Assembly: GCA_026391945.1 (NCBI GenBank)
Contig: JAPLDA010000010.1
Coordinates: 28,582-92,581, forward strand
Source: Bacteroidota bacterium
GTDB lineage: Bacteria; Bacteroidota; Bacteroidia; AKYH767-A; 2013-40CM-41-45
DNA: 64,000 nt
Direction of reading: 5' to 3'
Shown here: positions 8,249 through 57,322 of the stretch, in pieces
Layout: every line of letters starts with the position of its first letter
How positions within the stretch are numbered: position 1 is the stretch's first letter
Translations under genes and position numbers: made by a program
Notes under the pieces: model-generated
The model's input: the letters and a program-made list of their open reading frames with translations, nothing else
What the model was told of the DNA's origin: nothing
The model's database searches: none

Positions 8249-8272
8249 AGCAAGGTATCAATCAAGAGTTTT

Positions 8273-8499: not shown

Positions 8500-8533
8500 C
8501 CTGCTCTTTTTAGAATGATTAAAAGCGAATAAG

Positions 8534-24333: not shown

Positions 24334-24335
24334 TC

Positions 24336-26947: not shown

Positions 26948-26968
26948 TCATAATCCCGGTAAATAAAT

Positions 26969-27037
26969 AATGGCGGATTTCGGATTTTAAATTGCGAATT
27001 GTAGGTGACGCTAATCCGAAATTTAAAACCCGCCATT
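26969..27037. repeat. Imperfect inverted repeat between murD and ftsW
   Basis: AATGGCGG (26969-26976) faces CCGCCATT (27030-27037), and ATTTCGGATT next to the left arm recurs inverted as AATCCGAAAT near the right arm with a shift of seven bases. It is the only sizeable gap in the murD-ftsZ half of the operon. No T tract follows, so it does not look like a terminator. Confidence 0.6.
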
Positions 27038-27071
27038 CGAAATTGTAAAATAATAGAGAAAAAAAAACTCC

Positions 27072-29337: not shown

Positions 29338-29366
29338 AAACAGAAACGATTTTGAACCCAGCTGAA

Positions 29367-32968: not shown

Positions 32969-33013
32969 CGAAACAACAGAAACAACATATAACAAAACTC
33001 AACAACTTTTATC

Positions 33014-37391: not shown

Positions 37392-40300
37392 ATGAAAAAA
37401 CTAATTGTATTACTCTGTGTATTGCTTTATCAAAATCTTCCCGCACAAAACCCTCATGTAGTAATTGAGAATGTAAAATCGCCAGTGGGTCCATGCCAGA
37501 AGGGGGTATGTGATGTGGCATTTTACCTGCCTACAAGTCTTCAAGACAATGTTCTAGGTGTACGGATTCAAACCTTGACCGGCGCGACCTTATTCTCTAC
37601 TCAATCTCCATCATTTAATGGTGCCAATATTGATTGTTATATAAATGGTGCAGACACAAATTGCATAGATGCTTGGGGTTATAATGTCTCTCAGCCAGTC
37701 GTGAAAGGAATTCCATATCACAACACATCCGTTGCAAATCAAACGATCAATTTGCGATTGTCGATTCACCCGAATAGTCCGTCAGATTCAATTCAGTATA
37801 GTGAAACCACCTTAGTAACTACAGATAATACCGGGGGATTTTCAACCACTGTGGGTGTAGGTGCCTCAAATACCCCGGGCAATTCATGGAATACGATAAA
37901 CTGGAATAACGTTAATTACCTGGTTGCAGAAATTGATGTTACAGGCGGTGGAACCTTTATTCCTTTAAACTTTGAATTACTAAACAATATGCGTTCGGCA
38001 TTATTTCGAATCAATGGACTTAATCCTGGTCAATATTTAATAGAACCTTTTATACATCATTTCGGCAATATACAACCATACAATATTTTGCCTTCAAATA
38101 TGATAACCATTTTTCCAACCCTTACTTCCGGAAATATTACGGTTCAGGTTGACAGTATTCACTTGCCAACTGACGGGTGCACCACTGACGGATATTTTTC
38201 ATTTGCTTACTCATATGACGGTGTTACAAATAGTGATGACTATCGTCCTCCGATACTTACAACTTATTGGGAAGGCAAGGCCGATACTTCTGCAAATGAT
38301 AGTTTTCCGTATTATCGAAGTAATTTTACTAATGGTCATCTAGTTGCTGGCGGGGTCAGTTCACACTCTTTAGTAAACTATCAGATTTCAGAGCCCGGTT
38401 TCAATTCAGTGCTCGGATCATTTCCATTTTTGGCTCCGGCTCCTGTTCATCCTGGACATCCACAAATCCAAATTAATTTTGATTATCCTTTGAAAGAAAA
38501 TACCATAAATAATCAAACCACGTTTACAATTACATCGGCAGAAGAATGTATTTCTCAAGCAACCTATCACATTACCGGTCCCGGAATAGATCGCATGGTG
38601 ATAAGTCCGCCGGGAAATAATGGCCATACCGCTACGTATGGTGCCTACGGTTTCCCTTTGCCTGTTACAAGAAATGCTAGTTATCATATATCAGCAACTT
38701 ACATGGTTGGCGGTGAATACCAGGCTCGATATGGCCCTTATTTTATTGTTGATACCATTATACAAGGTCCTGATGTAATAGATCCCTGTGATGGTTCAAC
38801 TTTTTTTTCAGTAGATAATGTTACCACTTATCAGCATCTTGATGGTAAAATTCATGTGTATAATGGCCCGACTTTTTATGATCCCAATGATCCTACCTGG
38901 ACGGCATATCTCTACCCTTCAGATACTACATTGGGTGCAAGAGCCAGTCAGCATGGAAATTTATTCGACAATTTATCTTTTGAAAACCTGGAAGGTGGAA
39001 AATACTGGGTGAAATCTGTCTATACCAAAACAGATGGCAGTAACAATCCTGACGGGATTTGTGAAAAGTGGATCGGACCAATAACTGTATTAGACCTGAA
39101 TGATAATGTTTGCAACCCAATTTATTTATCAATGGGATTAAGCGGACCTTTTAGCAATGTGGCAGCTACAACAGAGGTCAACGAACCTCATCCGCCACAG
39201 GGAAATTGTACGGGACAAATGGGATGGTGCTCCGACATAGACCAAACGGTGTGGTTTTATTTTATCGCTCCTCCATCCGGTAAACTTACCATTCATCGAA
39301 ACCCTAATCTCAGAAGTTGGGATTCACAGATGGCTTTATACAAAGCTTCTTCATGCAATGATATTCTGAATGGGAATTACATTCTGGTTGCTGCCAATGA
39401 TGATTTTAATAATGGAATGAATGCTTCCTTAGGACCGTTGGATCTTGTTCCCGGTGCCAATTATTGGCTGCAGGTGGATGGTCGTGGAAATACTGAAGAA
39501 AGTAATTGGGGATTATGGCTGGAAGAGCCGACTCTCGTGGCGGATATTAGAATTGATACTGTACTTGGGAAAGTAATTTATGTTCCGCTTGAAGGAGCTA
39601 AAGTGAAGGCGTATTATCAGGGCAGTGCCACTCCCGATGATTCCACCCTGACAGATGTGAACGGACAATTTAATTTTACTCATTTGCTTCCCAACAGGAT
39701 ATATACTTTAAAAATACATTATACTGCATCGGAAGGTATTGGTCAGCAAATTTATTCTGACTATGAATATCCGAATTACAAAATATCAGATGCTGTCGGA
39801 ACCATTGGTTTACCCTACTCCATGTTATTACAGGTAAGAAGATTGCTTAATACCATACGTGAAAAACCAGATTACGAAATTACTTATGCATACGGCTGGC
39901 TGGATCCGAGTACACTAACGGATGAAAGCCGTCCTCATTATGATGTTACTGAAATTGATACGTTGATCAATCACTGGCGGTCTATTGATAAGACGATTGC
40001 AAAAGATGTTGTTGATAATTTGGGCAGAGTATATATTGCAACGAAAGCATGTGATTTGTTATCCAATAATGCATACGAGTTAAGTAAAATACCTGGCAAA
40101 TCACTTAGCGAGTTTGCTATTGCAATCATTGATTTGGGTACCTTTTCTGACCTGATTAAAAAAATTGCTAATGACAATGCCAGTTCATCTTTTAATAAAT
40201 TTGGAATTGCAAGCAAATTTCTTGGAGAAATAGCAGCGGCTACTTTGTCGTTTTCTTTAAAGTCGGCTGAACTCATTACAAAAAAAATATCCGAACAATC

Positions 40301-42092: not shown

Positions 42093-42348
42093 CCCTCATT
42101 ACTGCCATTTCTGTTTTACGTTTGACTGAAAGCAAACTTTGTCGACTGGGTAAGTAATTTTCTTGCATATTAATTAGTCAGGTGTTTTGCTGAATATAAG
42201 TTTTGATACCGGCAGAAGCCGCCTCTTATTGAGAAGTGAATTGCTGTGCGCTGATCATGACGAAACTGCTTTCACTGACTTATAGCTTGGTGTCTGCATT
42301 CAAAAAACGATGTAAATTTCTTTTTACACCAAGGTCATTTCAATATTG

Positions 42349-42375
42349 TTGCTGATGGTTTTATTTTCTACTTTG
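42349..42375 (+). promoter_or_regulatory. Candidate promoter of the glycan-degradation locus
   Basis: TTG (42349-42351), 17 bases, TACTTTG (42369-42375), one base shorter than TAnnTTTG, 58 bases before the permease ATG. The remaining 340-bp gap (42093-42433) shows no gene and no clear terminator. Confidence 0.35.
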
Positions 42376-42433
42376 CATCCGGTCTGTAAGACAAACTCAG
42401 TGTTTTAACATTGCTCACTTCAAAACCCAGCGC

Positions 42434-43924
42434 ATGAATCAGAACTCAGCGAGTAAATCATCGTTACCTGTTTTAATTTCAGTTTTCTTTTTCTGGGGAT
42501 TTGTCGCAGCATCCAATGATATCCTCATCCCGGTGTTCAAGGAAAAACTCAACCTGGAACAATGGCAGAGCCAGCTGATTTCCGTTGCGTTTTATGTGGC
42601 CTACACGGTGGGATCCATCATTTATTTTTTGGTTTCAAAAGCAACGGGCGGTGATATCCTCAACAGGATCGGGTACAAAAACGGAATTGCTTTCGGCCTC
42701 GTGTTTTCAGCACTCGGTACGTTGTTGTTTTACCCGGCAGCCATGACTTCTTCTTTCGGGTTAATGATCAGCGGGTTGTTTGTCGTCGGACTCGGATTTT
42801 CATTGCAGCAAACCGCCGCCAACCCTCTTGCCATCAACATCGGTGATCCTAAAAAAGGTTCGCAACGACTCAGTCTTGCCGGCGGAATCAACAACATCGG
42901 TACCACCATCGGTCCCGTGATTGTGAGCTTAGCCATTTTCGGATCATTGAAAGCCGGGGCCAAACTTGAAAACCTCGAATCGGTTAAGACGCCGTATTTA
43001 TTTTTAGGAGCAGCGTTCTTAATCGTCGCAGCCATTTTTAAATTCTCTTCGCTGCCGAACAAAATCATTCATGAAGAAGAGACAAGTGCTGCGTCTTCAA
43101 AATACCTGCAAAGAAAAAGTGCGCTCAACTATCCTCAGCTCTGGCTCGGCATGATCGGAATTTTTTTGTACGTAGGCGTGGAAGTCTCCACCGCTTCCAA
43201 CCTCCCGGAGTTCATGCGTCAGCATCTTCATACAACCACCGACCAGGTCGCTCCTTATGTTTCACTCTTCTGGGCGAGTTTGATGATCGGACGATGGTCG
43301 GGAGCCGTAGGCGCATTTGATTTGAAAAAAGGAACCAAACAAATTCTTCGTTTCTTTCTGCCTTATGCTGCCTTCGCTGTGTTTTTATTTGTGAATTTCC
43401 TGGCGAACCACGACCTGGAACCATTCTATCTTTATTTCTTCGTGATTATCGCCATCATCATCGGAGATATTTTAAGCAAAGGAAATCCTGCGCGGCAACT
43501 CGTCATTTTTTCTGCACTTGGAATTACTTCGCTGATCATCGGAATTCTTTCTGACGGAATGGTGAGTGTGTATGCATTCATCAGCGTCGGGTTATTTTGT
43601 TCCACACTCTGGCCCTGCATTTTTACATTGGCCATTGCCGGGTTAGGCAAACGCACCAACGACGGTTCCAGTTTTCTCATCATGATGATCATGGGCGGTG
43701 GTTTGGTGAGCTGGCTCCAGGGTTACCTGGCGAAGGATGATTTGCTTGGCATTCAATGGAGTTATTTAACCGGTGTTTTTTGTTTTGCTTACCTCGCTTT
43801 TTACGGATGGAGAGCAAGACAAATTTTAAAACTGCAGGGAATTGATTACGATGTTAAAATGAATTCCGACCCGTTGGATTCTCCAGGAGCATCACAGGCC
43901 GGTGTTCTGCAAAGTGAAATCTAA
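42434..43924 (+). CDS. FucP/NagP-type sugar:proton symporter (MFS)
   Basis: 496 residues, about 12 membrane helices. FFFWGFVAASNDILIPVFK at the start and GLGFSLQQTAANPLAINIG in helix 4 region are signatures of the fucose/glucose-galactose/GlcNAc permease branch of the major facilitator superfamily. Characterised relatives move fucose (FucP), glucose/galactose (GluP) and GlcNAc (NagP of Shewanella). In this locus GlcNAc or fucose are the likeliest cargo, since both are released by neighbouring enzymes; this is inference. First gene of the 15-kb plus-strand glycan locus, 23 bp ahead of a sugar kinase. Confidence 0.87.
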   Translation: MNQNSASKSSLPVLISVFFFWGFVAASNDILIPVFKEKLNLEQWQSQLISVAFYVAYTVGSIIYFLVSKATGGDILNRIGYKNGIAFGLVFSALGTLLFYPAAMTSSFGLMISGLFVVGLGFSLQQTAANPLAINIGDPKKGSQRLSLAGGINNIGTTIGPVIVSLAIFGSLKAGAKLENLESVKTPYLFLGAAFLIVAAIFKFSSLPNKIIHEEETSAASSKYLQRKSALNYPQLWLGMIGIFLYVGVEVSTASNLPEFMRQHLHTTTDQVAPYVSLFWASLMIGRWSGAVGAFDLKKGTKQILRFFLPYAAFAVFLFVNFLANHDLEPFYLYFFVIIAIIIGDILSKGNPARQLVIFSALGITSLIIGILSDGMVSVYAFISVGLFCSTLWPCIFTLAIAGLGKRTNDGSSFLIMMIMGGGLVSWLQGYLAKDDLLGIQWSYLTGVFCFAYLAFYGWRARQILKLQGIDYDVKMNSDPLDSPGASQAGVLQSEI

Positions 43925-43947
43925 GCAAGGGCGGACGGAACTTAACC

Positions 43948-44919
43948 ATGATGCAACAGTTAGTAGCGGGAATTGATATTGGCGGAACGAATACTTACTT
44001 CGGGTTGGTGAATCGCAATGGAAAAATTCTGTTGACAGGTTCGGTACGAACGACAGACTTTCCTGAACCAAAAGAATTAGTTAGCGCGGTTTCGAAAAAG
44101 ATACAGATACTCGTTGCCGACTGCCAGATGAAGACTGCCGAATACAAACTTGCCGGTGTCGGAATCGGTGCGCCAAACGGAAATTATTTCAACGGCTCCA
44201 TCGAATTTGCTCCGAACCTGAAATGGAAAGGAGTGGTTCCGCTTGCCGAATATTTCAAAGCGCAGCTAAATGTCCCGGCCGTCCTCACCAACGATGCAAA
44301 CGCAGCGGCGTTGGGAGAAATGTATTTCGGCGGAGCGAAGGGAATGAAGGATTTTATTTTCATCACACTCGGAACAGGCCTGGGCAGCGGCATCGTCGTA
44401 AACGGACAGATGGTTTACGGTCACGATGGTTTTGCCGGTGAACTGGGACATACGATCATCATCCAGCATGGCCGGCAATGCGGCTGCGGAAGAAAAGGTT
44501 GTCTCGAACAATATTGTTCCGCTTCCGGAATTGTCAAAACTTATTTTGAAATTCTGAAAAGCGAAAATCCCGATGCCATGGAAAACATCAATCGGTCTTT
44601 AGTGGATTCAAAATATATTTATGACAAAGCAATGGGCGGTGATGAAGACGCATTCTATGCTTTCAACTACACAGGTGAACTCTTAGGTTTTGCTCTCGCC
44701 AACAGTGTCGCCTACACAAGCCCCGAAGCGATTTTTCTTTTTGGCGGACTCGCACAGGCCGGTGAATTGCTTTTCAACCCGGTAATTTTGAGTTTCGAAA
44801 AAAATCTTTTGCATAACTATAAGAACAAAGTAAAAGTCCTGCCTTCTTCACTTCCTGAAAATGATGCGGCTATTTTGGGCGCGGCGTCTTTGATCTGGAA
44901 CGAGTTGAAGATTGAATAA
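43948..44919 (+). CDS. ROK-family sugar kinase
   Basis: 323 residues. ATP loop AGIDIGGTNTYFGLV, catalytic region LTNDANAAALGE, GTGLGSGIVVNG, and the zinc motif GRQCGCGRKGCLEQYCS, with the CxCGxxGCxE pattern of ROK proteins. ROK kinases phosphorylate glucose, GlcNAc, ManNAc or fructose; the sugar cannot be told from motifs. Paired with the permease it would trap an incoming sugar in the cytoplasm, GlcNAc being the natural guess here. No helix-turn-helix domain, so it is an enzyme and not a repressor. Confidence 0.9.
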   Translation: MMQQLVAGIDIGGTNTYFGLVNRNGKILLTGSVRTTDFPEPKELVSAVSKKIQILVADCQMKTAEYKLAGVGIGAPNGNYFNGSIEFAPNLKWKGVVPLAEYFKAQLNVPAVLTNDANAAALGEMYFGGAKGMKDFIFITLGTGLGSGIVVNGQMVYGHDGFAGELGHTIIIQHGRQCGCGRKGCLEQYCSASGIVKTYFEILKSENPDAMENINRSLVDSKYIYDKAMGGDEDAFYAFNYTGELLGFALANSVAYTSPEAIFLFGGLAQAGELLFNPVILSFEKNLLHNYKNKVKVLPSSLPENDAAILGAASLIWNELKIE

Positions 44920-44937
44920 TGAAAATTGAATAATGAA
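44911..44937 (+). repeat. 14-bp tandem repeat spanning the kinase stop and hexosaminidase start
   Basis: ATTGAATAATGAA occurs at 44911-44923 and again at 44925-44937. The first copy supplies the kinase TAA (44917-44919), the second the ATG of the hexosaminidase (44933). Confidence 0.85.
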
Positions 44938-47233
44938 GATAGCGAAAGGGATATTGGTGACATTTTTTTTTCCTGTGATTTTTTTTTCACAGGCGCAAAC
45001 GGCAACCTCCGTCAGCAATCTTTTTCCGTTGATTCCCAAGCCGGTTTCATTCAAAGCTTCGGAAGGAAAATTTCCGCTTTCTAATAAAACCATTATTGTT
45101 GCAGATAGCTCATCTATACCGGATGTTGAAATTTTCAATTTACAGCTTGAGAAAATCTATGGCTTTTCACTCCCGGTTTTTCTTCCCGGTCAACATGTTC
45201 ACGAAGATGGTGTCATCAGTGTTTCCCGGCAAACAAAGCAACTGATTCCTAAGGATGGATATGAATTGTCCGTTCATCAGAAATTAATTTCATTGAATGG
45301 AAAAGATGCCGGAGTTTTTTATGGTTTCCAGACCTTGCTTCAACTCATCATTCCCGGAATGGAAAAAACAGATTCAATTCCCTGTTGCGAAGTAAAAGAC
45401 TCACCACGGTTTCCATGGCGGGGAATGCACCTCGATGTGTGCCGGCATTTTTTTTCGAAAGAGTTTATAAAAAAATACATCGACCTCATCGCCTTGTATA
45501 AAATGAATACGTTTCACTGGCATCTCACCGATGACCAGGGCTGGAGAATCGAAATAAAAAAATATCCGAAACTTATTGAGACAGGATCATGGCGCAATGG
45601 TTCCATGGTGGGCGCCTACAGCAACGGGCAGTTCGACAGCATCCGCTATGGCGGATATTATTCTCAGGATGATATCCGGGAAGTGGTTGCGTATGCAATG
45701 CAACGACATGTCACGATCGTTCCGGAAATAGAAATGCCCGGCCATTCACTTGCCGCTCTTGCTTCTTACCCGGAGTTGTCATGCACCGGCGGGCCGTTTG
45801 AAGTGGCGAAGGCATGGGGCGTGTTTGATGATGTGTATTGCCCGAAGGAAGAAACATTCCAGTTTGTTGAAAATGTATTGAGCGAAGTGTGTGACCTGTT
45901 TCCCGGGAAATACATTCATGTCGGTGGTGATGAATGTGCAAAGGTTCGCTGGAAAAATTGTGAACATTGCCAAAAGCTGATGAAAGAAAAAAAATTGAAA
46001 GATGAAAACCAGTTGCAGAGTTATTTCATTCGTCGTCTTGAAAGATATCTTCACTCCAAAGGAAAACAACTGATCGGCTGGGATGAAATCCTCGAAGGCG
46101 GACTCGCTCCCGGCGTCACCGTGATGAGTTGGAGAGGAACGGAAGGCGGCATCATAGCGGCGAAACAACATCATGATGTCGTGATGACTCCCGGGTCGCA
46201 TTGCTACTTCGATTATTACCAGGGCAGCCCCGATTACGAACCGCTCGGCATCGGTGGTTACACAACCGTTGAAAAGGTATATTCCTATGAACCTGTTCCG
46301 GCAGAGCTGTCTTCTGAAAATAAAAAATACATCCTCGGTGCGCAGGGAAATGTGTGGACGGAATATATACAGACGCCCTCCCAGGTTGAATACATGGCTC
46401 TGCCCCGCATGTGCGCACTGGCGGAAGTGTTGTGGTCACCAAAGGAAATGAAAAAATATTCTGAATTTCAGAACCGTCTCATCCGCCATTTTTCATTGCT
46501 GGATAAACTGAATGTGAACTATGCAAAAACAATTTATGAATTGAAAACATCTGTCAAACCATTGGAAAATGGTAACGGTATTTCATTCGGGTTGACATCA
46601 CCATTTACTTCCGGGAATATATTTTATACCATGGATGGAAGCGATCCGGCGGCGGAATCAGTTTTATATACTCAACCGGTTTCCATTGTAAAAAGTTGTA
46701 AAGTGAAAGCCGCTTACTTTGAAGATGGGCAACGAAAAGGAAATACTCTTTCACAGGAATTTTTTGTGAGTAAATCCACAGGGAAAAAGATCAAGCTGAA
46801 TATTCCTCCTCATGAAAATTATTTCTGTAATGGTCCGCAATCACTTGTGGATGGCATCAAAGGCGATCTTCACAAACACGGACAAAACTGGCTCGGCTGG
46901 TGGGGAAAGGATATGGTCGCTGAAATTGATCTTGGTAAAAAGGAAACATTTTCAAAGATCTCCCTGGATGTTTATGACGGAGAAGCCAGTTGGATTTATT
47001 TGCCTGTGAGTATTGAAATTTTGATTTCAGATGATGGTGACCAGTTTTCATCCATTAAAAAATTATCGTCAGAAGAAATTAAAAAATTTAACGGAGCGAT
47101 TGAAATTCAAACAGGGAATCAATCAGCAAGATTTGTGAAGGTAATTGCAAAAAATGCGGGAAAGATTCCCGATGGAAAACAAGGATCAGGAAACGACGCA
47201 TGGTTATTCGTGGATGAGATTTCCGTTGAATAA
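44933..47233 (+). CDS. Beta-N-acetylhexosaminidase, GH20
   Basis: 766 residues, exported (signal peptide to about AQTATS). An N-terminal GH20b domain (IPKPVSFKASEGKFPL) is followed by the catalytic barrel with FHWHLTDDQGWRIEIKKYP and the catalytic Asp-Glu pair in HVGGDECAK. C-terminal to this are a CHB_HEX_C-like domain (IFYTMDGSDPAAESVLYTQPV) and a discoidin/CBM32-like domain (FSKISLDVYDGEASWIYLPVSIEILISDDG). It removes terminal beta-GlcNAc or GalNAc, here probably the antenna GlcNAc of N-glycans. It starts 13 bp after the kinase stop. Confidence 0.94.
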   Translation: MKIAKGILVTFFFPVIFFSQAQTATSVSNLFPLIPKPVSFKASEGKFPLSNKTIIVADSSSIPDVEIFNLQLEKIYGFSLPVFLPGQHVHEDGVISVSRQTKQLIPKDGYELSVHQKLISLNGKDAGVFYGFQTLLQLIIPGMEKTDSIPCCEVKDSPRFPWRGMHLDVCRHFFSKEFIKKYIDLIALYKMNTFHWHLTDDQGWRIEIKKYPKLIETGSWRNGSMVGAYSNGQFDSIRYGGYYSQDDIREVVAYAMQRHVTIVPEIEMPGHSLAALASYPELSCTGGPFEVAKAWGVFDDVYCPKEETFQFVENVLSEVCDLFPGKYIHVGGDECAKVRWKNCEHCQKLMKEKKLKDENQLQSYFIRRLERYLHSKGKQLIGWDEILEGGLAPGVTVMSWRGTEGGIIAAKQHHDVVMTPGSHCYFDYYQGSPDYEPLGIGGYTTVEKVYSYEPVPAELSSENKKYILGAQGNVWTEYIQTPSQVEYMALPRMCALAEVLWSPKEMKKYSEFQNRLIRHFSLLDKLNVNYAKTIYELKTSVKPLENGNGISFGLTSPFTSGNIFYTMDGSDPAAESVLYTQPVSIVKSCKVKAAYFEDGQRKGNTLSQEFFVSKSTGKKIKLNIPPHENYFCNGPQSLVDGIKGDLHKHGQNWLGWWGKDMVAEIDLGKKETFSKISLDVYDGEASWIYLPVSIEILISDDGDQFSSIKKLSSEEIKKFNGAIEIQTGNQSARFVKVIAKNAGKIPDGKQGSGNDAWLFVDEISVE

Positions 47234-47237
47234 CCAG

Positions 47238-47301
47238 CCCATGGCTTCAGCCGTGGGATAAAAAACGATTTCTAATCGTGGGATAAATCGATTTCCAATC
47301 G
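47238..47301. repeat. Three small tandem hairpins with GTGGGATAAA spacers
   Basis: CCCATGGC-TTCA-GCCGTGGG, then CGATT-TCT-AATCG and CGATT-TCC-AATCG, each hairpin followed by GTGGGATAAA or GTAAAAAA. The last two form a 25/23-bp imperfect direct repeat (47253-47277, 47278-47300). The first hairpin begins 4 bases after the GH20 stop. Confidence 0.8.
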
Positions 47302-47337
47302 TAAAAAAAAAGATTTCAATGATTTAACAATATTATC

Positions 47338-48318
47338 ATGACAACAAGAAGAAGTTTCATCAAATGGTCGGCGTTGAGCGCAGCCATGGTATCGGTACGT
47401 AATTCTTCCGCAAAAAAATTTTCTATTCCATCTTCGGTAACAAAACCAATCGTGATCTCTACCTGGAAACACGGACAGGATGCCAATGTGGACGCCTGGA
47501 AAATCCTCTCTGCTGGAGGACGTGCATTGGATGCCGTCGAAAAAGGAGTGATGGTTACAGAAGCCGATCTCAGAAACTTAAGTGTCGGTCTTGGCGGTCT
47601 GCCCGACCGTGACGGCCATGTAACGCTCGACGCCTGCATCATGGATGAATGGGCGAACTGCGGCTCCGTTGCTTTTCTGGAACACATCAAACATCCCATC
47701 TCCATAGCGCGGTTGGTGATGGAAAAAACTCCTCACGTGATGCTCGTCGGCGAAGGCGCGCTGAAGTTTGCGTTGGATCATGGTTTCAGCAAAGAAAAAT
47801 TCGACCGTACACCGGAATCAGACAAAGCGTGGAAAGAATGGCTGAAGAAAGCGGAGTACAAACCCATCGTCAATTTTGAAAATCACGATACGATTGGAAT
47901 GGTGGCCATGGATGTGAATGGAAATCTTTCAGGAGCCTGCACCACCAGCGGCATGGCGTACAAACTGCACGGACGAGTGGGCGATTCGCCGATCATCGGC
48001 GCGGGATTGTATGTGGACAATGAAGTTGGTGCGGCAACAGCTACGGGAACGGGCGAAGAAGTGATTCGTATTTGCGGAACACATCTCGTAGTGGAATTGA
48101 TGCGCCAGGGAAAATCTCCGGAAAATGCCTGTCGTGAGGCCGTGGAACGTATTGTAAAAAAACAACCGGAGAAATCGAAGAATCTCCAGGTAGGTTTTCT
48201 TGCACTCAATAAGAACGGTGAGTACGGAGCGTATTGCCTGCAGACCGGTTTTAACTATGCCGTTTATTCCAACGAAATAAAAAATGAAATGATCGACGGA
48301 AAAAGTTTTTACAAATAA
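47338..48318 (+). CDS. N4-(beta-N-acetylglucosaminyl)-L-asparaginase (glycosylasparaginase)
   Basis: 326 residues, Ntn hydrolase that cuts the GlcNAc-Asn bond left when an N-glycan has been trimmed. Tat-like signal TTRRSFIKWSALSAA suggests export to the periplasm in folded form. STWKHGQDANVDAWKILSAGG and LDACIMDE are family features, and self-cleavage should occur before the threonine of HDTIGMVAMD, making it the nucleophile. GVGDSPIIGAGLYVDN-type text (RVGDSPIIGAGLYVD) lines the active site. It sits between GH20 and cutC in the glycan locus. Confidence 0.94.
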   Translation: MTTRRSFIKWSALSAAMVSVRNSSAKKFSIPSSVTKPIVISTWKHGQDANVDAWKILSAGGRALDAVEKGVMVTEADLRNLSVGLGGLPDRDGHVTLDACIMDEWANCGSVAFLEHIKHPISIARLVMEKTPHVMLVGEGALKFALDHGFSKEKFDRTPESDKAWKEWLKKAEYKPIVNFENHDTIGMVAMDVNGNLSGACTTSGMAYKLHGRVGDSPIIGAGLYVDNEVGAATATGTGEEVIRICGTHLVVELMRQGKSPENACREAVERIVKKQPEKSKNLQVGFLALNKNGEYGAYCLQTGFNYAVYSNEIKNEMIDGKSFYK

Positions 48319-48351
48319 TAGTTAACGTAATACAGGTTTCATTTCATCAAC

Positions 48352-49029
48352 ATGGCCGGAATCAAAATTGAAATTGCCTGCTTCAATCTTCAGTCAGCAC
48401 TGATCGCTGAGCATGCCGGTGCTGATCGTATTGAGCTTTGTGAAAATTATGAAGCCGGTGGAATCACGCCTTCTTACCAGGTTATTGAAGAAGCAAAAAA
48501 AAATATTTCTGTTCCCGTTTTTGTCATGATCAGGCCAAGGGCGGGAAATTTCATTTATTCTGATGACGAGTTTGAGCAGGTGGGAAAGGATATTCAATTC
48601 TGTAAAAAGCTTGGAATGGATGGCGTTGTTTTAGGATTGCTGAACCCCGATGGAAGCATTGATACCTCACGTACAAAAAAGCTGGTTGAACTGGCTGCAC
48701 CGATGCCGGTTACTTTTCATCGTGCATTTGATGTTTCAGATCATCCGTTCGATGCAATGGAAGATCTCATCACCTGTGGATGCAAACGGATACTTACTTC
48801 CGGTCACAGTGAGACCGCCATCGGTGGAAAAGAATTAATTACGCAACTCATCAGACAAGCAAATGGGAAAATCATCATTCTTCCAGGTGGCGGAGTGCGA
48901 TCAGGAAATATTCCTGAGTTATTAAAGACAGGAGCAAGGGAGTTTCATTCATCGGCCATCAACAAAGAAACATGGCTGGCTGATGAATTGGAAATAAGAA
49001 AAATCAAGCGGGAATTGGCTGGAAGATGA
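48352..49029 (+). CDS. cutC: CutC family protein
   Basis: 225 residues, TIM-barrel family called copper homeostasis protein CutC. IKIEIACFNLQSALIAEHAGADRIELCENYEAGGITPSY is the family N-terminus, followed by VFVMIRPRAGNFIYSD, VTFHRAFDVSD and LPGGGVRSGNI. No signal peptide, so cytoplasmic. Evidence for a copper role is weak in general, and here the gene lies 33 bp behind the glycosylasparaginase inside a glycan-degradation locus. A part in handling a released sugar or its product is possible but not shown. Confidence 0.92.
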   Translation: MAGIKIEIACFNLQSALIAEHAGADRIELCENYEAGGITPSYQVIEEAKKNISVPVFVMIRPRAGNFIYSDDEFEQVGKDIQFCKKLGMDGVVLGLLNPDGSIDTSRTKKLVELAAPMPVTFHRAFDVSDHPFDAMEDLITCGCKRILTSGHSETAIGGKELITQLIRQANGKIIILPGGGVRSGNIPELLKTGAREFHSSAINKETWLADELEIRKIKRELAGR

Positions 49030-49041
49030 ACCTGCAGTAGC

Positions 49042-49049
49042 TATCTTTG
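49042..49049 (+). promoter_or_regulatory. Candidate internal -7 element before the first fucosidase
   Basis: TATCTTTG is an exact TAnnTTTG match 24 bases before the GH29 ATG. The nearest TTG (49015-49017) is 24 bases upstream, a little far. The fucosidase-mannosidase half of the locus may have its own start point. Confidence 0.38.
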
Positions 49050-49072
49050 CGATGATTAATTTATATTGATCT

Positions 49073-50374
49073 ATGAAACGAATCATCCTCCTGTTTTTCT
49101 TTTTTGTTTCCATCCGTGTTTTTTCACAGGAAAATAAAATGCAATGGTTCGCCGATGCCAAACTCGGCATCTTCATTCATTGGGGAATTTATTCGGTGAA
49201 TGGCATTGATGAAAGCTGGTCGTTCTACAATAAAAAAATTTCTCATGCTGATTACATGAAGCAACTCAGCGGCTTCACGGCTTCTGAATATAAACCTCAT
49301 GCATGGGTTGAACTGATAAAAAGGAGCGGAGCACGGTACGCCGTCATTACCGCAAAGCATCATGACGGTGTCGCTTTGTGGAATACGCAGATGAATGAAC
49401 TGAGTGTGCCGAAAAAAACTCCTGCTGCAAGCGATGTGTTGAGTCCGTTTGTACATGCGCTGAGGGAATATGATATTAAAGTCGGAACTTATTTTTCGCT
49501 GATCGACTGGTCATATTCTGATTACACCGGGTTCCTGAAAGATTCATCACGGTATGATTCGAAAAAAGATCCGGAAAGATGGAAACGCTTTACCGGTTTC
49601 TGCATGGGACAAATCAGCGAGATCAGTTTGCAGTTTAATCCTGATTTATTCTGGTTCGACGGCGACTGGGAACACAGTGCAGAAGAATGGCTCGCTCCTG
49701 AAATCCGGAAAATGATTTTGGATCATAACCCGGAAACCATCATCAATGGCCGGTTACAAGGCTACGGAGATTATGATACACCTGAGCAGAATTTCCCTGT
49801 GACAAAGCCGAATTTAAAGTATTGGGAACTCTGCATGACCATTAACGATAACTGGGGCTACCAGCAGCGTGATACGAATTACAAAACGCCGTATGAAATC
49901 ATTTCCATTTTTGCCGATGCTATTTCCATGGGAGGAAACCTGTTGCTCGACATTGGCCCGAAAGCCGATGGTTCGATTCCGAAGGAACAGGAATACATGC
50001 TCACCGAACTTGGCCAATGGACAGGCAAACACAGTGAAGCTATTTTCAATACGATTGCAGGTTTACCGCACGGGCATTTTTACGGGCCAACGACTTTATC
50101 AAAAGATTCTCTCATACTTTATTTATTTCTACCCGCAAAAACATCGGGTGATGTGGTCATCAAAGGACTCGATACAAAAATTAAACGTGTTTCTGTTGTT
50201 GGCAGCAATGAACAACTGCCTGTAAAAATTGTCGGAAAAATATCGTGGAGCAAGGTTCCGGGATTGGTGTACATTCATGTTCCGGAGCCATCAACGGATC
50301 GGTACATGACTGTTTTAAAAGTTGATCTTGAAAACCCGGTCAGGTTGTATAGTGGAAAGGGTGGATTCAATTAA
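49073..50374 (+). CDS. Alpha-L-fucosidase, GH29 (first copy)
   Basis: 433 residues with signal peptide (MKRIILLFFFFVSIRVFSQ). MQWFADAKLGIFIHWGIYSVNG is the GH29 N-terminus, ITAKHHDGVALW follows, and LFWFDGDWEHS carries the nucleophile aspartate. GNLLLDIGPKADGSIP closes the barrel, after which there is a short beta domain. It removes alpha-linked fucose in the periplasm or outside. A second GH29 with clearly different sequence follows after 36 bp, so the two may prefer different linkages, such as core against antenna fucose. Confidence 0.93.
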   Translation: MKRIILLFFFFVSIRVFSQENKMQWFADAKLGIFIHWGIYSVNGIDESWSFYNKKISHADYMKQLSGFTASEYKPHAWVELIKRSGARYAVITAKHHDGVALWNTQMNELSVPKKTPAASDVLSPFVHALREYDIKVGTYFSLIDWSYSDYTGFLKDSSRYDSKKDPERWKRFTGFCMGQISEISLQFNPDLFWFDGDWEHSAEEWLAPEIRKMILDHNPETIINGRLQGYGDYDTPEQNFPVTKPNLKYWELCMTINDNWGYQQRDTNYKTPYEIISIFADAISMGGNLLLDIGPKADGSIPKEQEYMLTELGQWTGKHSEAIFNTIAGLPHGHFYGPTTLSKDSLILYLFLPAKTSGDVVIKGLDTKIKRVSVVGSNEQLPVKIVGKISWSKVPGLVYIHVPEPSTDRYMTVLKVDLENPVRLYSGKGGFN

Positions 50375-50410
50375 TTTTTGTTTTCAAAATAAAATAAAAA
50401 AATATCCGGC

Positions 50411-51823
50411 ATGAAATTTTTTCAGAAAACCTCCATCTTCATTTCCTTTTTTTCTTTACTCACCGCTGTAGTTAACGGGCAGGAAAAATATTATCCACCT
50501 TCTGATTCACTGGTCATCAAAAGACTTGCATGGTGGAGCAACATTAAATTTGGTTTGCTGATGCATTGGGGAACTTATAGCCAGTTGGGAATTGTGGAAA
50601 GCTGGAGTCTTTGCCCGGAGGATGAAAACTGGACACAACGCAAAGGTCCGTATTCAGAAAATTATTTTGATTACAAAAGGAATTATGAAAATCTGAAAAC
50701 CACGTTCAATCCTGTTAAATTCAATCCGGAGAAATGGGCGAAGGCAGCGAAGGATGCGGGAATGAAGTACGTCGTATTCACTACGAAACATCACGACGGG
50801 TTTTGTATGTTCGACACAAAGGAAACGGATTATAAAATCACCGATAAAAATTGTCCGTTCAGTAAGAATGAAAAATCAAATGTGACGAAAGAAGTGTTCA
50901 GTGCTTTCAGGAAAGAAGGTCTTGGCGTGGGAGCTTATTTTTCAAAACCCGATTGGCACAGCGATGATTACTGGTGGAAGTATTTTCCGCCGATGAACCG
51001 TAACGTGAACTATGACACGAAGAAATACCCGGAGCGATGGAAGAAGTTTGAAGAGTTTACCTTCAACCAGATGAAAGAGTTGATGACCGATTATGGAAAG
51101 GTGGACATCCTCTGGCTCGATGGCGGCTGGGTTCGTCCCGATTCCACCGGCAAAGAAGGTTTGTGGACGCAGCAACTCAACATGCATCGCATCGGGGAAA
51201 TGGCACGATCACTTCAGCCCGGTATCATCATGGTGGATCGCGCGGTCGAAGGATATTACCAAAACTACCTCACGCCGGAACAGCAGGTGCCGGAAAAACC
51301 GCTTGCTTACCCGTGGGAAACCTGCATGACGATGGCCACTTCGTGGAGTTATGTTCCCAATGATGTTTACAAACCGGCCAATAAACTGATTCATCTGCTT
51401 GCTAAGGTCGTTTCCCGCGGAGGAAATTTTCTGCTGAACATCGGCCCCGGTCCGGATGGTGACTGGGATGCTGTCGCTTATTCACGTTTGAAGGAAATCG
51501 GTGACTGGATGAAAGTGAATGATGAAGCCATCTATGAAACGCAACCTGTTCCACCATATGAATCCGGTAAAATTGTTTTTACGTCAAAGAAGGATGGAAC
51601 TGTTTATATGATTTATCTTGCAGAAGAAAATGAAACCATTCTTCCCGGTGAAATTTCATTCAGCGGAATTGCTCCGCGGGCAAATACCGTCGTGAAATTG
51701 CTGGGAACCAATTTGAATTTCAGGTGGAAGGAAGAAAACGGGATCGTCAAAATTAAAATACACGAAAAGTTAAGAACACAAATTCCCTGCAGGCATGCCT
51801 GGGTGTTTACATTCAAAAAATAA
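50411..51823 (+). CDS. Alpha-L-fucosidase, GH29 (second copy)
   Basis: 470 residues with signal peptide (FISFFSLLTAVVNGQ). LAWWSNIKFGLLMHWGTYSQLG, VFTTKHHDGFCMFDTKETDYK, the nucleophile aspartate in VDILWLDGGWV, and GGNFLLNIGPGPDGDW define GH29. The loop contents differ from the upstream GH29: a longer insert with PPMNRNVNYDT and a YLTPEQQVPEKP segment. That points to another acceptor specificity. Its stop overlaps the start of the GH2 gene (TAATGA). Confidence 0.93.
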   Translation: MKFFQKTSIFISFFSLLTAVVNGQEKYYPPSDSLVIKRLAWWSNIKFGLLMHWGTYSQLGIVESWSLCPEDENWTQRKGPYSENYFDYKRNYENLKTTFNPVKFNPEKWAKAAKDAGMKYVVFTTKHHDGFCMFDTKETDYKITDKNCPFSKNEKSNVTKEVFSAFRKEGLGVGAYFSKPDWHSDDYWWKYFPPMNRNVNYDTKKYPERWKKFEEFTFNQMKELMTDYGKVDILWLDGGWVRPDSTGKEGLWTQQLNMHRIGEMARSLQPGIIMVDRAVEGYYQNYLTPEQQVPEKPLAYPWETCMTMATSWSYVPNDVYKPANKLIHLLAKVVSRGGNFLLNIGPGPDGDWDAVAYSRLKEIGDWMKVNDEAIYETQPVPPYESGKIVFTSKKDGTVYMIYLAEENETILPGEISFSGIAPRANTVVKLLGTNLNFRWKEENGIVKIKIHEKLRTQIPCRHAWVFTFKK

Positions 51824-54405
51824 TGATGAGAAAAAAAATCAGTTCAATGCGAATTCATTTCATGATGACAGGCAGGAAGTTCATTTTCTTTTGCATACTG
51901 TTGTTTATTTCTTCTGCCGCCTTTTCCCAGGCACAGACGAAATATCTTTCCGGTGAAAATAATTCTGCCTGGCAATGCCGGAAACAGGGAGATGAAAAAT
52001 GGCGGCCTGCCAATGTTCCCGGGACCGTTCATACGGATTTGCTGAGTAATCATCTCATCGATGATCCGTTTTATTCAGATCATGAAAAAAAACTGCAATG
52101 GATTGACACCTGCAACTGGGAATACGCGACCTCGTTTGATTGCGACTCCGCTTTGTTTAACAGCAGTCATGTTGAACTTCAGTTTGACGGACTGGATACC
52201 TACGCGAAAGTATTTCTGAACGATGTCCTCATTCTCACGGCTGACAACATGTTCCGTTCATGGAATGTGAATTGCAAAAGTTTGCTGAAGGAAAATAACA
52301 ATCGCCTCGTCATACAGTTTGAATCTGCTGTAAGAAAAGGAAAAACCCTTGCGAAGAATTTACCTTACACATTGCCCGGCGATGAAAAAGTATTTACCCG
52401 CAAAGCGGCTTACCAGTATGGCTGGGATTGGGGTCCGCGCTTTGTGACCTGTGGAATCTGGCGGCCGGTAAAAATTGTTTCGTGGGATTTTTTCAGGATC
52501 AATGATATTCATATTATTCAGGATGAACTGGCAGACACCGCTGCCAGTCTCGTGGCGGAAGTGAATGTGAGCGCCGATGAAGCCACCACGGTTTATTTTA
52601 AAATGGTTTTGGAAAATGATTCACGCGATTCCATGTACTTTGAACAACCCATTCGCAAAGGCGATAACATTCTCAACCTTCCTTTCAAAATTAGAAATCC
52701 GAAACGATGGTGGTGCAATGGATTGGGAGAACCTTTCCTGTACCACCTGTCGGTTCAGTCAACCAACGTTTTTGCAAAATCAGAGACAAAAAATTTTGAA
52801 ATCGGTTTGCGCACGTTGCAACTCGTCCAAGACGCTGATTCAATCGGGAGAAGATTTTATTTTAAACTCAACGGGATTCCTGTTTTTATGAAAGGCGCCA
52901 ATTACATTCCGGCTGATAATTTTCTTCCGCGTGTTTCTGAAAATGGGTACAAAGAAATGATACAGTCGGCTGCTGATGCCAACATGAACATGCTGAGAGT
53001 GTGGGGCGGCGGCATTTATGAGGATGATGCGTTTTATAAACTCTGTGACGAAAATGGAATACTTGTCTGGCAGGATTTCATGTTTGCCTGTTCGATGTAT
53101 CCTGGCGATTCTTTGTTCCTGGATAATGTGAAAGAAGAAGCAACGCAAAATGTAATGAGATTAAGGAATCATCCTTGTTTGGCTTTGTGGTGCGGCAACA
53201 ATGAAATGGATGAAGGATGGAAGAACTGGGGATGGCCGAAACAGTATCATTATTCTGAAAAAGATTCTGCAAAAATCCGGAATGATTACGAGAAGATATT
53301 TATGGATGTGTTGAAAGGAGTCGTGGAAACGAATGATGGCCTGCGTTCCTACTGGCCGTCATCACCATCCATCGGCTGGGGACATGATGAAAGTTTGCGT
53401 GAAGGAGATTCTCATTACTGGGGAGTTTGGTGGGGAAAGGAACCTTTTGAAATGTATCAATCAAAAGTCGGGAGGTTTATGAGTGAGTATGGTTTCCAGG
53501 GGATGCCTTCACTGGAAACATTTAAAAAATTCTGCGATGCAAAAGATTGGTCACTGACTTCTGCCGCTGTAAAAAATCACCAGAAGCATCCGACTGGTTA
53601 CGAAACCATTCAATCGTACCTGGAAAAAGATTACAGGCAACCGAAGGATTTTGAAAACTACATTTATGTGTCTCAGCTGTTGCAGGCAGAAGGAATGAAG
53701 ACTGCCATCGAAGCTCACCGTAAATCAAAACCAACTTGCATGGGTACGTTGTACTGGCAGCTCAATGACTGCTGGCCGGTTACATCCTGGAGCAGCATGG
53801 ATTATTTTGGGAATTGGAAAGCGCTTCATTATACTGTGAAGAAGGCATTCAGCAAATTCCTGGTGACTGCCGAGAAGAAAGGGGAGAACCTCGTGGTGTA
53901 TGTAAGTTCCGATCAGCCAGGAAATCTTTCAGCAAAATTCAAGCTGAAGCTCATTGACTTCAACGGGAACATTCTCTGGGGAGATTCCGGAAATATTTCC
54001 GTTGCCTATGAAAGTGCTGCGAAGATTTACATGATCCCCCTGAAAGAGATTCTGACGAATGTTCAGCCAGCGCGGGTCTTTTTAAAGATGGTTGTTGAAA
54101 AAGATAAAAATGTGCTGACGGAAAACCTGTTTTATTTTACCGGGCCGAAAAACCTGATGCTTGATAAAACAGATATTCAATATGTATTTTCTAAAACGAA
54201 AGACAACCGGCAAGCCGTCACCGTTTCATCAAAAACATTTGCGAAAAATGTGTTCATTGATTTTGGAGATGCGAACGTAAAACTGAGTGACAATTATTTT
54301 GATTTGCTTCCCGGTGAAAAGAAAACCATTACCGTTCAAAATTCCATGTCATCAGAAGAACTCGCCAGGAAAATAAAAATAAAATCCCTCATCGACAGTT
54401 ACTGA
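51823..54405 (+). CDS. Beta-mannosidase, GH2
   Basis: 860 residues. N-terminal signal peptide after a basic stretch (FIFFCILLFISSAAFSQ), a jelly-roll sugar-binding domain, an Ig-like domain, then the barrel with acid/base glutamate in LWCGNNEMDEG and nucleophile glutamate in FMSEYGFQGMPS. The NNEMDEGW form and the GWDWGPRF motif are typical of beta-mannosidases. In N-glycan breakdown this enzyme removes the core beta-mannose from chitobiose. Starts within the end of the second fucosidase gene. Confidence 0.93.
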   Translation: MMRKKISSMRIHFMMTGRKFIFFCILLFISSAAFSQAQTKYLSGENNSAWQCRKQGDEKWRPANVPGTVHTDLLSNHLIDDPFYSDHEKKLQWIDTCNWEYATSFDCDSALFNSSHVELQFDGLDTYAKVFLNDVLILTADNMFRSWNVNCKSLLKENNNRLVIQFESAVRKGKTLAKNLPYTLPGDEKVFTRKAAYQYGWDWGPRFVTCGIWRPVKIVSWDFFRINDIHIIQDELADTAASLVAEVNVSADEATTVYFKMVLENDSRDSMYFEQPIRKGDNILNLPFKIRNPKRWWCNGLGEPFLYHLSVQSTNVFAKSETKNFEIGLRTLQLVQDADSIGRRFYFKLNGIPVFMKGANYIPADNFLPRVSENGYKEMIQSAADANMNMLRVWGGGIYEDDAFYKLCDENGILVWQDFMFACSMYPGDSLFLDNVKEEATQNVMRLRNHPCLALWCGNNEMDEGWKNWGWPKQYHYSEKDSAKIRNDYEKIFMDVLKGVVETNDGLRSYWPSSPSIGWGHDESLREGDSHYWGVWWGKEPFEMYQSKVGRFMSEYGFQGMPSLETFKKFCDAKDWSLTSAAVKNHQKHPTGYETIQSYLEKDYRQPKDFENYIYVSQLLQAEGMKTAIEAHRKSKPTCMGTLYWQLNDCWPVTSWSSMDYFGNWKALHYTVKKAFSKFLVTAEKKGENLVVYVSSDQPGNLSAKFKLKLIDFNGNILWGDSGNISVAYESAAKIYMIPLKEILTNVQPARVFLKMVVEKDKNVLTENLFYFTGPKNLMLDKTDIQYVFSKTKDNRQAVTVSSKTFAKNVFIDFGDANVKLSDNYFDLLPGEKKTITVQNSMSSEELARKIKIKSLIDSY

Positions 54406-54406
54406 C

Positions 54407-57322
54407 ATGAAAAAACTAATCAGTTCTTTATTCCTTATTCCTTATTCCTTATTCGTCAGTGCACAGGCCGATTATGCAAAGTACGTCAATCCATTCATCG
54501 GCACCGGTGGTCACGGACATACGTACCCGGGAGCAACCACACCGTTTGGAATGGTTCAGCTATCGCCGGATACGCGCATTGACGGAAGCTGGGATGGTTG
54601 TGGCGGATACCATTACAGCGACAGCATCATCTATGGTTTTTCGCATACTCATTTAAGCGGAACCGGTTGTTCTGATTACGGTGACATCATGCTGATGCCA
54701 ATAACAGGCGAACCATCGCTGGATAATAAAATTTATTCATCGAAATTTTCCCATGCCGATGAAACAGCTTCTGCAGGATATTACTCAGTGAAAATTGATA
54801 AGGGTGATGTTCTGGTTGAACTCTCTTCCACTACCCGCGTCGGAATGCATCGTTATACATTTGCGAAAGCAGGTGATGTGTCGGTTGTGCTGGACCTTAC
54901 GCATCGTGATAAATTGCTCGAAGGAAAAATTCACGCCGTGAACGCCACCACTTTTGAAGGGTTGAGAAGATCAGAAGCATGGGCGAAGGATCAGTGGGTT
55001 TTTTATCGCATTGAATTTTCAAAACCGGTGACCTATTCATTCATCGATAAAAAAGGTGGCAATGATCAGAAAGCATGGTTCAAATTCAACCTGAAAAAAA
55101 ATGAAAAACTATTGGTGAAGGTTTCACTTTCCTCTGTCAGTGAAGAAGGAGCGAAGAAAAATATGGAAACCGAACTTCCTCATTGGGATTTTGACAAAGT
55201 AAAAAAGGAAGCACGCGATGCCTGGCAAAAGGAACTTTCAAAAATTGAAGTGAGCGGTGGAACAGAAGAACAATTCAAAATATTTTACACGGCTCTTTAT
55301 CACACCATGGTTCAGCCGAATATTTACAACGATGCGGACGGACAATACCGTGGCCGTGATTTGAAGGTTCACAAGGCGGAAGGTTTCAATTACTACACGG
55401 TGTTTTCATTGTGGGATACGTTCCGTGCCTGGCATCCGCTCATGACGATCATCGACCGGAAGAGAACGCTTGATTACATCAAAACATTTCTGACACAATA
55501 TGAACAGGGCGGATTGTTACCGGTGTGGGAATTATCATCCAACGAAACAGAATGCATGATCGGTTATCATTCCGTCAGCGTCATTGCTGATGCTGCGATC
55601 AAGGGAATCAACGGCTTCAATATGGAAGAAGCCTTTGAGGCTATGAAAAAAAGCGCCGATTCGAAAGTGCGCTATGGGCTTGGTGCCTATATGGAAAAAG
55701 GTTGTTTAAGCGTGGAAGATGAATCGAACTCCGTTTCAAAAACGCTGGAGTATGCGTATGATGACTGGTGCATTGCACAGATGGCTCAACTCCTTCATCA
55801 CGATAAGGATTACGAACGATACATGGAACGTTCGCAGTCATGGAAAAATCTTTTCAATCAGGAAACAGGTTTTATGCGACCCAAAAAAAACGGTGGATGG
55901 CTCAAACCGTTCGATCCGTTTGAAGTGAATAACAATTACACGGAAGCAAATGCTTTTCAATATAGTTTTTTTGTGCCGCAGGAAATTGCAGGCTACGGGA
56001 AGGCGATTGGCGGTGATCAGGATTTTGAAAAAAAATTGGATGAACTATTTGCTGCTGAAAGTAAAACCACTGGCCGTGATCAGGCTGACATTACAGGAAT
56101 GATCGGGCAGTATGCGCATGGTAACGAGCCAAGCCATCACATGGCGTATTTATACAATTACATTGGCAAGCCCTGGAAGACTCAGGAAAGAGTCAGGAAG
56201 ATTCTCACGGAATTTTATCATGCAGCTCCCGATGGATTGATCGGCAATGAAGACTGCGGACAAATGAGTGCATGGTATGTGATGAGCGCCATGGGATTGT
56301 ACCAGGTTTGTCCGGGTTATCCGGCCTTTGATATTGTACCACCATTATTTCCTGAAATTAAATTGAATTTGGAGAGTGGTAAAAAACTTATGATCAAGGT
56401 GAATGGAGAAAATAACAGCTACTCATACATCAGGAATATTCAGTTTAAAAAAGATCCGGCGTATCCGAATACCATCATACCCTATGAAATGGTGATGGCT
56501 GGTGGTAACTTAAATTATTTTCTTGAATCCGATCCCTTGAAAACATCTGAAGATAAAAATCTCCAGTCGCATTATGCCGGAATGAATTCATCGTTTTTAT
56601 ATTCAATAATTGAGAATCCGGTGATCACTGCATCGGATCTTAAATTTCATGATTCAATTTTAGTGAGCGTTACTCCTTATGCGAAAGATGATCAGCTGTA
56701 CTACTCGGTATCCGGTGCCGGTTATGATACATCATTTAAAATTTATGCCGGGCCATTTTGTATTGATGCATCATCGCGAATAAAAGTATTTTCAAAAAGC
56801 AAAACGGAACTCAAAAGTAAAATGGTCACCGCTAATTTCTACAAGAACCCTCATCCCGGTTGGAAGATGAATCTTGTTTCAAAATATTCAAACCAGTACA
56901 CCGCTGGTGGTGATGAAGGTCTCATCGATGGAATCCGCGGCGATGTTGACTGGCAGAAAGGAAACTGGCAGGGTTATCAAAACGATTTTGAATGTGTGAT
57001 TGATTTGGGAAAGGAACAAAACATAGGAAGTTTTTCCGCCGGTTTTTTACAGGATGTCCGCGCATGGATACTGATGCCGAAAAAGGCGGAGTTCAGTTTT
57101 TCAACGGATGGAATAAATTATTCTGATCAAACCATGATCAGGAATACAGTGCATGATTCTGATTATACCACGCAAACAAAAGATTTCCGTACCATGTTAA
57201 TCCGTCCTGTGAATGCGCGTTACGTAAAAGTGAAAGCGGAGAACTACGGTAAACTTCCTGAATGGCATGCCGGGGCAGGAGGACAGGCATGGATTTTTAT
57301 TGATGAGATTTCTGTTCAGTAA
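54407..57322 (+). CDS. Alpha-mannosidase, GH92, with a C-terminal carbohydrate-binding-like domain
   Basis: 971 residues with signal peptide (LISSLFLIPYSLFVSAQ). NPFIGTGGHGHTYPGATTPFGMVQLSPD is the GH92 N-terminus, FSLWDTFRAWHPL lies in the middle and GNEDCGQMSAWYVMSAMGLYQ contains the catalytic glutamate. GH92 enzymes are calcium-dependent exo-alpha-mannosidases, often alpha-1,2. The last 160 residues (DGIRGDVDWQKGNWQGYQNDFECVIDLG) form a discoidin-like domain that also appears in the GH20 of this locus, suggesting shared targeting. Last gene of the locus. Confidence 0.94.
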   Translation: MKKLISSLFLIPYSLFVSAQADYAKYVNPFIGTGGHGHTYPGATTPFGMVQLSPDTRIDGSWDGCGGYHYSDSIIYGFSHTHLSGTGCSDYGDIMLMPITGEPSLDNKIYSSKFSHADETASAGYYSVKIDKGDVLVELSSTTRVGMHRYTFAKAGDVSVVLDLTHRDKLLEGKIHAVNATTFEGLRRSEAWAKDQWVFYRIEFSKPVTYSFIDKKGGNDQKAWFKFNLKKNEKLLVKVSLSSVSEEGAKKNMETELPHWDFDKVKKEARDAWQKELSKIEVSGGTEEQFKIFYTALYHTMVQPNIYNDADGQYRGRDLKVHKAEGFNYYTVFSLWDTFRAWHPLMTIIDRKRTLDYIKTFLTQYEQGGLLPVWELSSNETECMIGYHSVSVIADAAIKGINGFNMEEAFEAMKKSADSKVRYGLGAYMEKGCLSVEDESNSVSKTLEYAYDDWCIAQMAQLLHHDKDYERYMERSQSWKNLFNQETGFMRPKKNGGWLKPFDPFEVNNNYTEANAFQYSFFVPQEIAGYGKAIGGDQDFEKKLDELFAAESKTTGRDQADITGMIGQYAHGNEPSHHMAYLYNYIGKPWKTQERVRKILTEFYHAAPDGLIGNEDCGQMSAWYVMSAMGLYQVCPGYPAFDIVPPLFPEIKLNLESGKKLMIKVNGENNSYSYIRNIQFKKDPAYPNTIIPYEMVMAGGNLNYFLESDPLKTSEDKNLQSHYAGMNSSFLYSIIENPVITASDLKFHDSILVSVTPYAKDDQLYYSVSGAGYDTSFKIYAGPFCIDASSRIKVFSKSKTELKSKMVTANFYKNPHPGWKMNLVSKYSNQYTAGGDEGLIDGIRGDVDWQKGNWQGYQNDFECVIDLGKEQNIGSFSAGFLQDVRAWILMPKKAEFSFSTDGINYSDQTMIRNTVHDSDYTTQTKDFRTMLIRPVNARYVKVKAENYGKLPEWHAGAGGQAWIFIDEISVQ

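Follow-up and report, generated by a model that had tools for sequence, protein, structure and literature searches.

The cutC gene and its operon

We analysed a stretch of 64,000 nucleotides from a Bacteroidota genome (hereafter the window), in which cutC belongs to a nine-gene operon on the + strand (42434-57322) in the order MFS transporter, ROK kinase, GH20, glycosylasparaginase (AGA), CutC, GH29, GH29, GH2 and GH92 (Table 1). The gaps of 33 bp to the preceding AGA gene and of 43 bp to the following GH29 gene confirmed the preliminary description, which had placed cutC between a glycosylasparaginase and a fucosidase in a glycan operon. The cutC product carries the full Pfam CutC domain (PF03932; 235 bits, E 8e-70, curated cut-off 23.3), matching positions 1-201 of the 202 in the profile, and a profile search of the whole 3.1 Mb assembly found no other CutC copy. 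By inspection it has no signal peptide, and the protein is presumably cytoplasmic.

Table 1. Positions of features in the window and, where a locus name is given, in loci of other genomes
Feature	Position	Strand	Remarks
Division/cell-wall cluster	20771-34546		PBP, Mur ligases, FtsW, MurG, FtsA, FtsZ; ordinary order
Secreted protein, 1566 aa	37392-42092	+	immediately 5' of the operon; no Pfam family above cut-off
MFS sugar transporter, GluP/FucP/NagP type	42434-43924	+	profile matches below equivalog cut-offs
ROK sugar kinase	43948-44919	+	sole ROK protein in the genome
GH20 beta-N-acetylhexosaminidase, secreted	44933-47233	+	profile match
Glycosylasparaginase (AGA), exported	47338-48318	+	PF01112; Tat signal; hydrolyses GlcNAc-Asn
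cutC	48352-49029	+	ORF of 225 aa, ATG start; proposed amino-sugar enzyme, predicted cytoplasmic (beta/alpha)8 barrel
GH29 alpha-L-fucosidase	49073-50374	+	profile match
GH29 alpha-L-fucosidase, copy 2	50411-51823	+	profile match
GH2 enzyme with beta-mannosidase domains	51823-54405	+	profile match
GH92 alpha-mannosidase	54407-57322	+	TIGR01180, 665 bits
HlyD/CusB-fold adaptor	60342-61388		generic; beside an MFS pump
BRO-N domain protein	62247-63077		near the window end; phage/mobile-element type domain
L140 (Bacteroidota genome G248)	7367-10177		CutC, then a NagB/PIG-L fusion gene (glucosamine-6-phosphate isomerase and deacetylase domains)
L283, L285 (Asticcacaulis, Pseudoalteromonas)	5932-7633; 5914-7514		BadF/BadG-type ATPase immediately 3' of CutC
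L304, L323 (Persicobacter)	636-7984; 2603-10004		plasmid operons with CutC and PNGase F

The operon unites in one directon the exoglycosidases for fucose (both GH29), mannose (GH92), beta-mannose (GH2) and GlcNAc (GH20), and the gene set is, as judged from its profile matches, one for the stepwise removal of N-glycans followed by the cleavage of GlcNAc-Asn. It is not a canonical Sus-type PUL, as no SusC/SusD pair was found among the + strand genes of 37392-57322. The window AGA scored 455 bits to the solved bacterial glycosylasparaginase 3ljq, whereas its best score to a structure of an isoaspartyl peptidase/asparaginase was 143 bits. The residue that matches the start of the solved beta chain is Thr185, so that the autoproteolytic threonine is in place. 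By both of these alignments it is a true glycosylasparaginase. Its N-terminus has a twin-arginine signal (MTTRRSFIKW), and such Tat signals were also observed on nearly all the AGA partners of CutC in relatives.

Profile searches of the window genome detected neither NagA (best match 31 bits, cut-off 226) nor any PF01182 protein (NagB or 6-phosphogluconolactonase). Both proteins are thus missing from a genome that possesses a single ROK kinase and an operon for the release of GlcNAc.

CutC is linked to glycosylasparaginase and to amino-sugar genes

We compared 100 cutC loci, comprising a phylum-wide sample of Bacteroidota and nearer relatives of the window genome, with 40 control windows placed at fixed offsets within the same genomes; genes in the loci were called from ORFs. 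AGA was by far the most frequent neighbour family. It was present inside a window of ~20 kb around cutC in 51/100 loci and in 0/40 controls (Fisher p 2e-10; p values in this study, those of the within-taxon tests excepted, ignore ancestry), and within 400 bp of cutC in 44/100. Among close relatives in Flavobacteriia and Sphingobacteriia, AGA lay just 5' of cutC in 78 of the 80 loci, cutC being near a contig end in the other two, and a GH2 mannosidase followed downstream in 73. GH20, GH2 and GH92 occurred in 18, 17 and 13 of the 100 loci, respectively, and in none of the 40 controls. GH29 was present in a single locus and was rejected as a regular partner of CutC.

The preliminary description had mentioned similar neighbourhoods in other Bacteroidota, correctly as it turned out, and of the glycan genes that it had proposed to compare with cutC, AGA proved the most enriched and GH20 and GH92 were enriched more weakly, whereas GH29 was not. 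As the enrichment is strongest for AGA and lower for GH20, GH2 and GH92, and GH29 is no general partner, we concluded that CutC goes with cleavage of the amide bond and with amino-sugar genes, and not with glycan PULs in general. A literature search found no paper joining CutC with glycosylasparaginase, or CutC with ROK and glucosamine; among papers matching CutC and nagA, none concerned a role in GlcNAc metabolism according to title and abstract.

The layout of the pair was variable. Many loci consist of a bare AGA-CutC pair with opposite-strand genes on both sides, and both tandem and divergent arrangements occur, the latter in one family. In about half of the Bacteroidota cutC genes AGA is not adjacent, and many of the other neighbours are unrelated housekeeping genes.

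The association was also observed between whole genomes. AGA was present in 91 of the 93 genomes having CutC versus 57 of the 204 lacking it (297 genomes; p 7e-34, phi 0.65). Because ancestry inflates the p values of genome profiles, comparisons were also made within taxa: AGA accompanied CutC in 23/23 genomes of one family and was found in 0/7 of its CutC-less members (p 5e-7), the values for one genus being 13/13 and 0/4 (p 4e-4) and those for the class of the window genome 61/63 and 0/11. When the genomes were separated by GH92, AGA occurred in 61/63 CutC-containing versus 15/45 CutC-less genomes having GH92, and in 30/30 versus 42/159 of those without it. As the tie persists in both groups, we concluded that CutC tracks AGA and not the mannosidases; the CutC-GH92 association (phi 0.44) is weaker and not needed, and was rejected as the driver. 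A replacement of NagB by CutC was likewise rejected as a general rule, since NagB is present in most CutC-containing genomes. Both AGA and PNGase F are missing from two of the CutC-containing genomes (G288 and G340).

Although they are unrelated enzymes, AGA (PMC6960285) and PNGase F both hydrolyse the glycan-Asn amide, releasing a glycosylamine. Two species of Persicobacter, sp. JZB09 and P. psychrovividus, have the gene order SusC-SusD-CutC-PNGase F, in which the CutC and PNGase F genes overlap or nearly do so (in JZB09, SusD and PNGase F were assigned by Pfam and SusC by position and sequence). PNGase F matched strongly in 14 of the genomes sampled, and 13 of these contain CutC. The PNGase F proteins of the two species are 67% identical, and in P. 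psychrovividus a GH92-like gene stands alongside.

Outside Bacteroidota, 19 of 26 cutC loci, a non-random set chosen among plasmid matches with enterobacteria left out, have ROK or BadF kinase, NagA, NagB/SIS or GH20 genes nearby. We observed CutC with ROK and NagA/SIS/GlcNAc kinase/MurQ in Sinorhizobium (L279) and Shinella (L302), MurQ-ROK-CutC (L280), NagA-ROK-SIS//CutC in Paracoccus (L293; in L281 also with NagB), CutC-GH20-NagB in Kozakia (L282), CutC-BadF kinase (L283, L285), CutC-SIS-NagA (L284, L300), GH20-M81-MFS-CutC (L294, L295, L297, L298), ROK-M81-peptide ABC-CutC (L290), and CutC with a PF01112 protein and ROK (L299), fucosidase and ROK (L291), ROK (L307) or GH20 (L305). Many of the Proteobacterial loci (Paracoccus, Sphingomonas, Kozakia) contain GlcNAc genes without AGA. 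No sugar context was found at the loci of Entomospira, Cetobacterium and Enterococcus, and enterobacterial cutC, which we take to adjoin cmoAB, is a counter-example to the amino-sugar context. The BadF/BadG-type ATPases belong to the superfamily of the human GlcNAc kinase NAGK. In Rhizobiaceae and Roseobacteraceae an M81 (MlrC-type) metallopeptidase gene recurs beside GH20 or ROK and CutC, and its product may be a further amide hydrolase in this pathway.

Fold, conserved residues and the copper annotation

The AF2 model of the window CutC (pLDDT 94) is a (beta/alpha)8 TIM barrel, as in the solved CutC structures, and aligns with human CUTC (3iwp) at a TM of 0.92 and a sequence identity of 41%. 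Structure comparison gave PdxS and MfnB as the nearest folds outside the family, and the ThiE (thiamine-phosphate synthase) profile matched weakly over beta4-beta8. An alignment of 100 non-redundant sequences showed complete or near-complete conservation of E7, R26, E28, C30, R61, R63, H123, R124, D127, T149-G151 and H199. In the model all of them lie in the C-terminal portions of the strands or directly behind these, where the active sites of TIM barrels are located. On inspection, the GGGV loop after beta7 resembles a phosphate-binding turn.

A dedicated copper gene was found in none of the 30 window ORFs scanned, which bears out an observation of the preliminary description; the sole copper-sounding match is the generic HlyD/CusB-fold adaptor. 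Nor are the 100 cutC loci linked to copper genes, as the motifs of CPx copper ATPases and multicopper oxidases were found in none of them. The Cu(I)-ligand pair proposed for human CUTC consists, we assume, of two cysteines, the second of which aligns with Ala9 of the window protein. This position is Cys in 58 of the 100 non-redundant sequences. The window CutC keeps only Cys30 (conserved at 97%) and thus lacks the pair. Human CUTC binds copper weakly, one Cu+ per monomer, and its knock-down made human cells and C. elegans more sensitive to copper (review PMC11083455). The E. coli cutC region also holds the gene of a sigma-E-dependent sRNA, micL, and deletions take out both (PMC8216713). The evidence for the copper annotation of CutC, human CUTC included, is weak.

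Proposed role of CutC and comparison with known systems

According to the preliminary description, CutC would act as an enzyme on a product derived from sugar, and the enrichment of AGA (51/100 loci, 91/93 genomes) supports this role; that CutC is an enzyme we infer from this context and from the fold. Our main reading is that CutC is a cytoplasmic TIM-barrel amino-sugar enzyme coupled to the cleavage of the sugar-Asn bond of N-glycans, most likely acting on the glycosylamine, and we give it a probability of about 0.4. Its membership of an amino-sugar pathway appears very probable, and a glycosylamine substrate about half as probable as that. The secreted fucosidases, mannosidases and GH20 would strip the N-glycan, and cleavage of GlcNAc-Asn by the Tat-exported AGA would yield aspartate and the glycosylamine 1-amino-GlcNAc. 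The MFS carrier would take up the sugar, the ROK kinase would phosphorylate it, and CutC would convert the glycosylamine or its 6-phosphate into ammonia and GlcNAc or GlcNAc-6-P.

The AGA product 1-amino-GlcNAc has been described as non-metabolisable, needing a non-enzymatic breakdown that occurs spontaneously at acid pH (PMC6960285). What AGA and PNGase F have in common is their glycosylamine product, and what the loci elsewhere share is GlcNAc and its kinase. As the two amidases share the glycosylamine, and the breakdown of 1-amino-GlcNAc needs acid, so that a near-neutral Bacteroidota cell would gain from an enzyme, we ranked hydrolysis of the glycosylamine or its 6-phosphate first and a mutarotase or isomerase of HexNAc or HexNAc-6-P second. 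Several observations count against the glycosylamine. AGA is exported and CutC has no signal, which would require import of the glycosylamine before it decays; the Proteobacterial GlcNAc loci without AGA agree equally well or better with GlcNAc or GlcNAc-6-P as substrate; about half of the Bacteroidota cutC genes are not adjacent to AGA; and G288 and G340 have neither amidase. Moreover, L. casei degrades GlcNAc-Asn with an alf-2 cluster that has no cutC (PMC6960285).

The main alternative, somewhat less likely, is that CutC is instead a mutarotase, epimerase or isomerase that readies beta-GlcNAc from GH20 and AGA, or its 6-phosphate, for the kinase or NagA, with no specificity for the glycosylamine. 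Such an activity would cover the Proteobacterial loci and their ROK or BadF kinases, and it would suit a sugar-phosphate barrel with a putative phosphate loop in the GGGV turn; however, CutC follows AGA more closely than GH92, GH20 as the source of beta-GlcNAc is near far fewer cutC genes than AGA, and the conserved Lys of NanE-type epimerases is absent. The tight AGA pairing and the bare AGA-CutC pairs would also be accounted for if CutC were not a metabolic enzyme but an accessory of AGA, acting as its chaperone, as its regulator or as a helper in its folding or export; proteins exported by Tat fold in the cytoplasm, the expected location of CutC. This we consider very improbable, as neither the PNGase F and GlcNAc-gene neighbours elsewhere nor the enzyme fold with its pocket of invariant polar residues would be explained, and recombinant glycosylasparaginases have been studied without CutC.

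A gene order frozen since a Bacteroidota ancestor and devoid of functional meaning would agree with the clustering of AGA adjacency on the CutC tree (at least 15 changes, compared with 33 in shuffles). We give this explanation hardly any weight, since at least 7 of the changes are forced by supported branches, tandem and divergent layouts coexist, CutC and AGA are jointly absent inside one genus and one family, and unrelated phyla converge on amino-sugar contexts. A copper-binding homeostasis protein that occurs in sugar operons by coincidence is very improbable as well: the historical annotation, the weak Cu+ binding, the knock-down phenotype and the conserved Cys30 speak for it, whereas micL clouds the E. 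coli region, Ala9 replaces the second proposed ligand here, and the cutC loci lack the CPx ATPase motif.

The nearly obligatory tie to glycosylasparaginase, together with the second tie to PNGase F, gives CutC a specific and testable substrate class. If our main reading is true, a very common annotation would be corrected and a gap filled in the catabolism of N-glycans and GlcNAc-Asn; a metabolic role beside AGA and NGLY1 would also be suggested for human CUTC, by extrapolation. Loss of human AGA causes aspartylglucosaminuria. We put forward only tentatively, and as unlikely in its full breadth, that the CutC family from bacteria to humans hydrolyses (deaminates) 1-amino-N-acetylglucosamine or its 6-phosphate released by glycosylasparaginase or PNGase, copper being a side issue.

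The window protein shares family and fold with the solved CutC members from human (3iwp), Shigella (1twd), B. anthracis (4r9x) and S. agalactiae (2bdq). The family is named for copper, whereas the links of the window CutC are to AGA and to amino-sugar genes, and one of the two proposed Cu(I) cysteines is absent from it. With the sugar-phosphate barrels PdxS/Pdx1, MfnB (MJ1099) and ThiE (14-19% identity) the likeness is of fold only, and CutC has no conserved catalytic lysine. The plant N-glycan PULs of gut Bacteroides have GH20, GH29, GH2 and GH92 exoglycosidases in common with the window operon; CutC and AGA are unmentioned there (PMC9522356), and the window operon has no identified SusC/SusD pair. 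The alf-2 pathway for fucosyl-GlcNAc-Asn of L. casei (Lactobacillus/Lacticaseibacillus) shares with it an MFS permease, an alpha-L-fucosidase, a glycosylasparaginase and a ROK GlcNAc kinase in series (PMC6960285). In L. casei, the glycosylasparaginase is intracellular, 1-amino-GlcNAc decays by itself in the acid cytoplasm and no cutC was reported (PMC6960285), whereas the window operon encodes an exported AGA and includes cutC.
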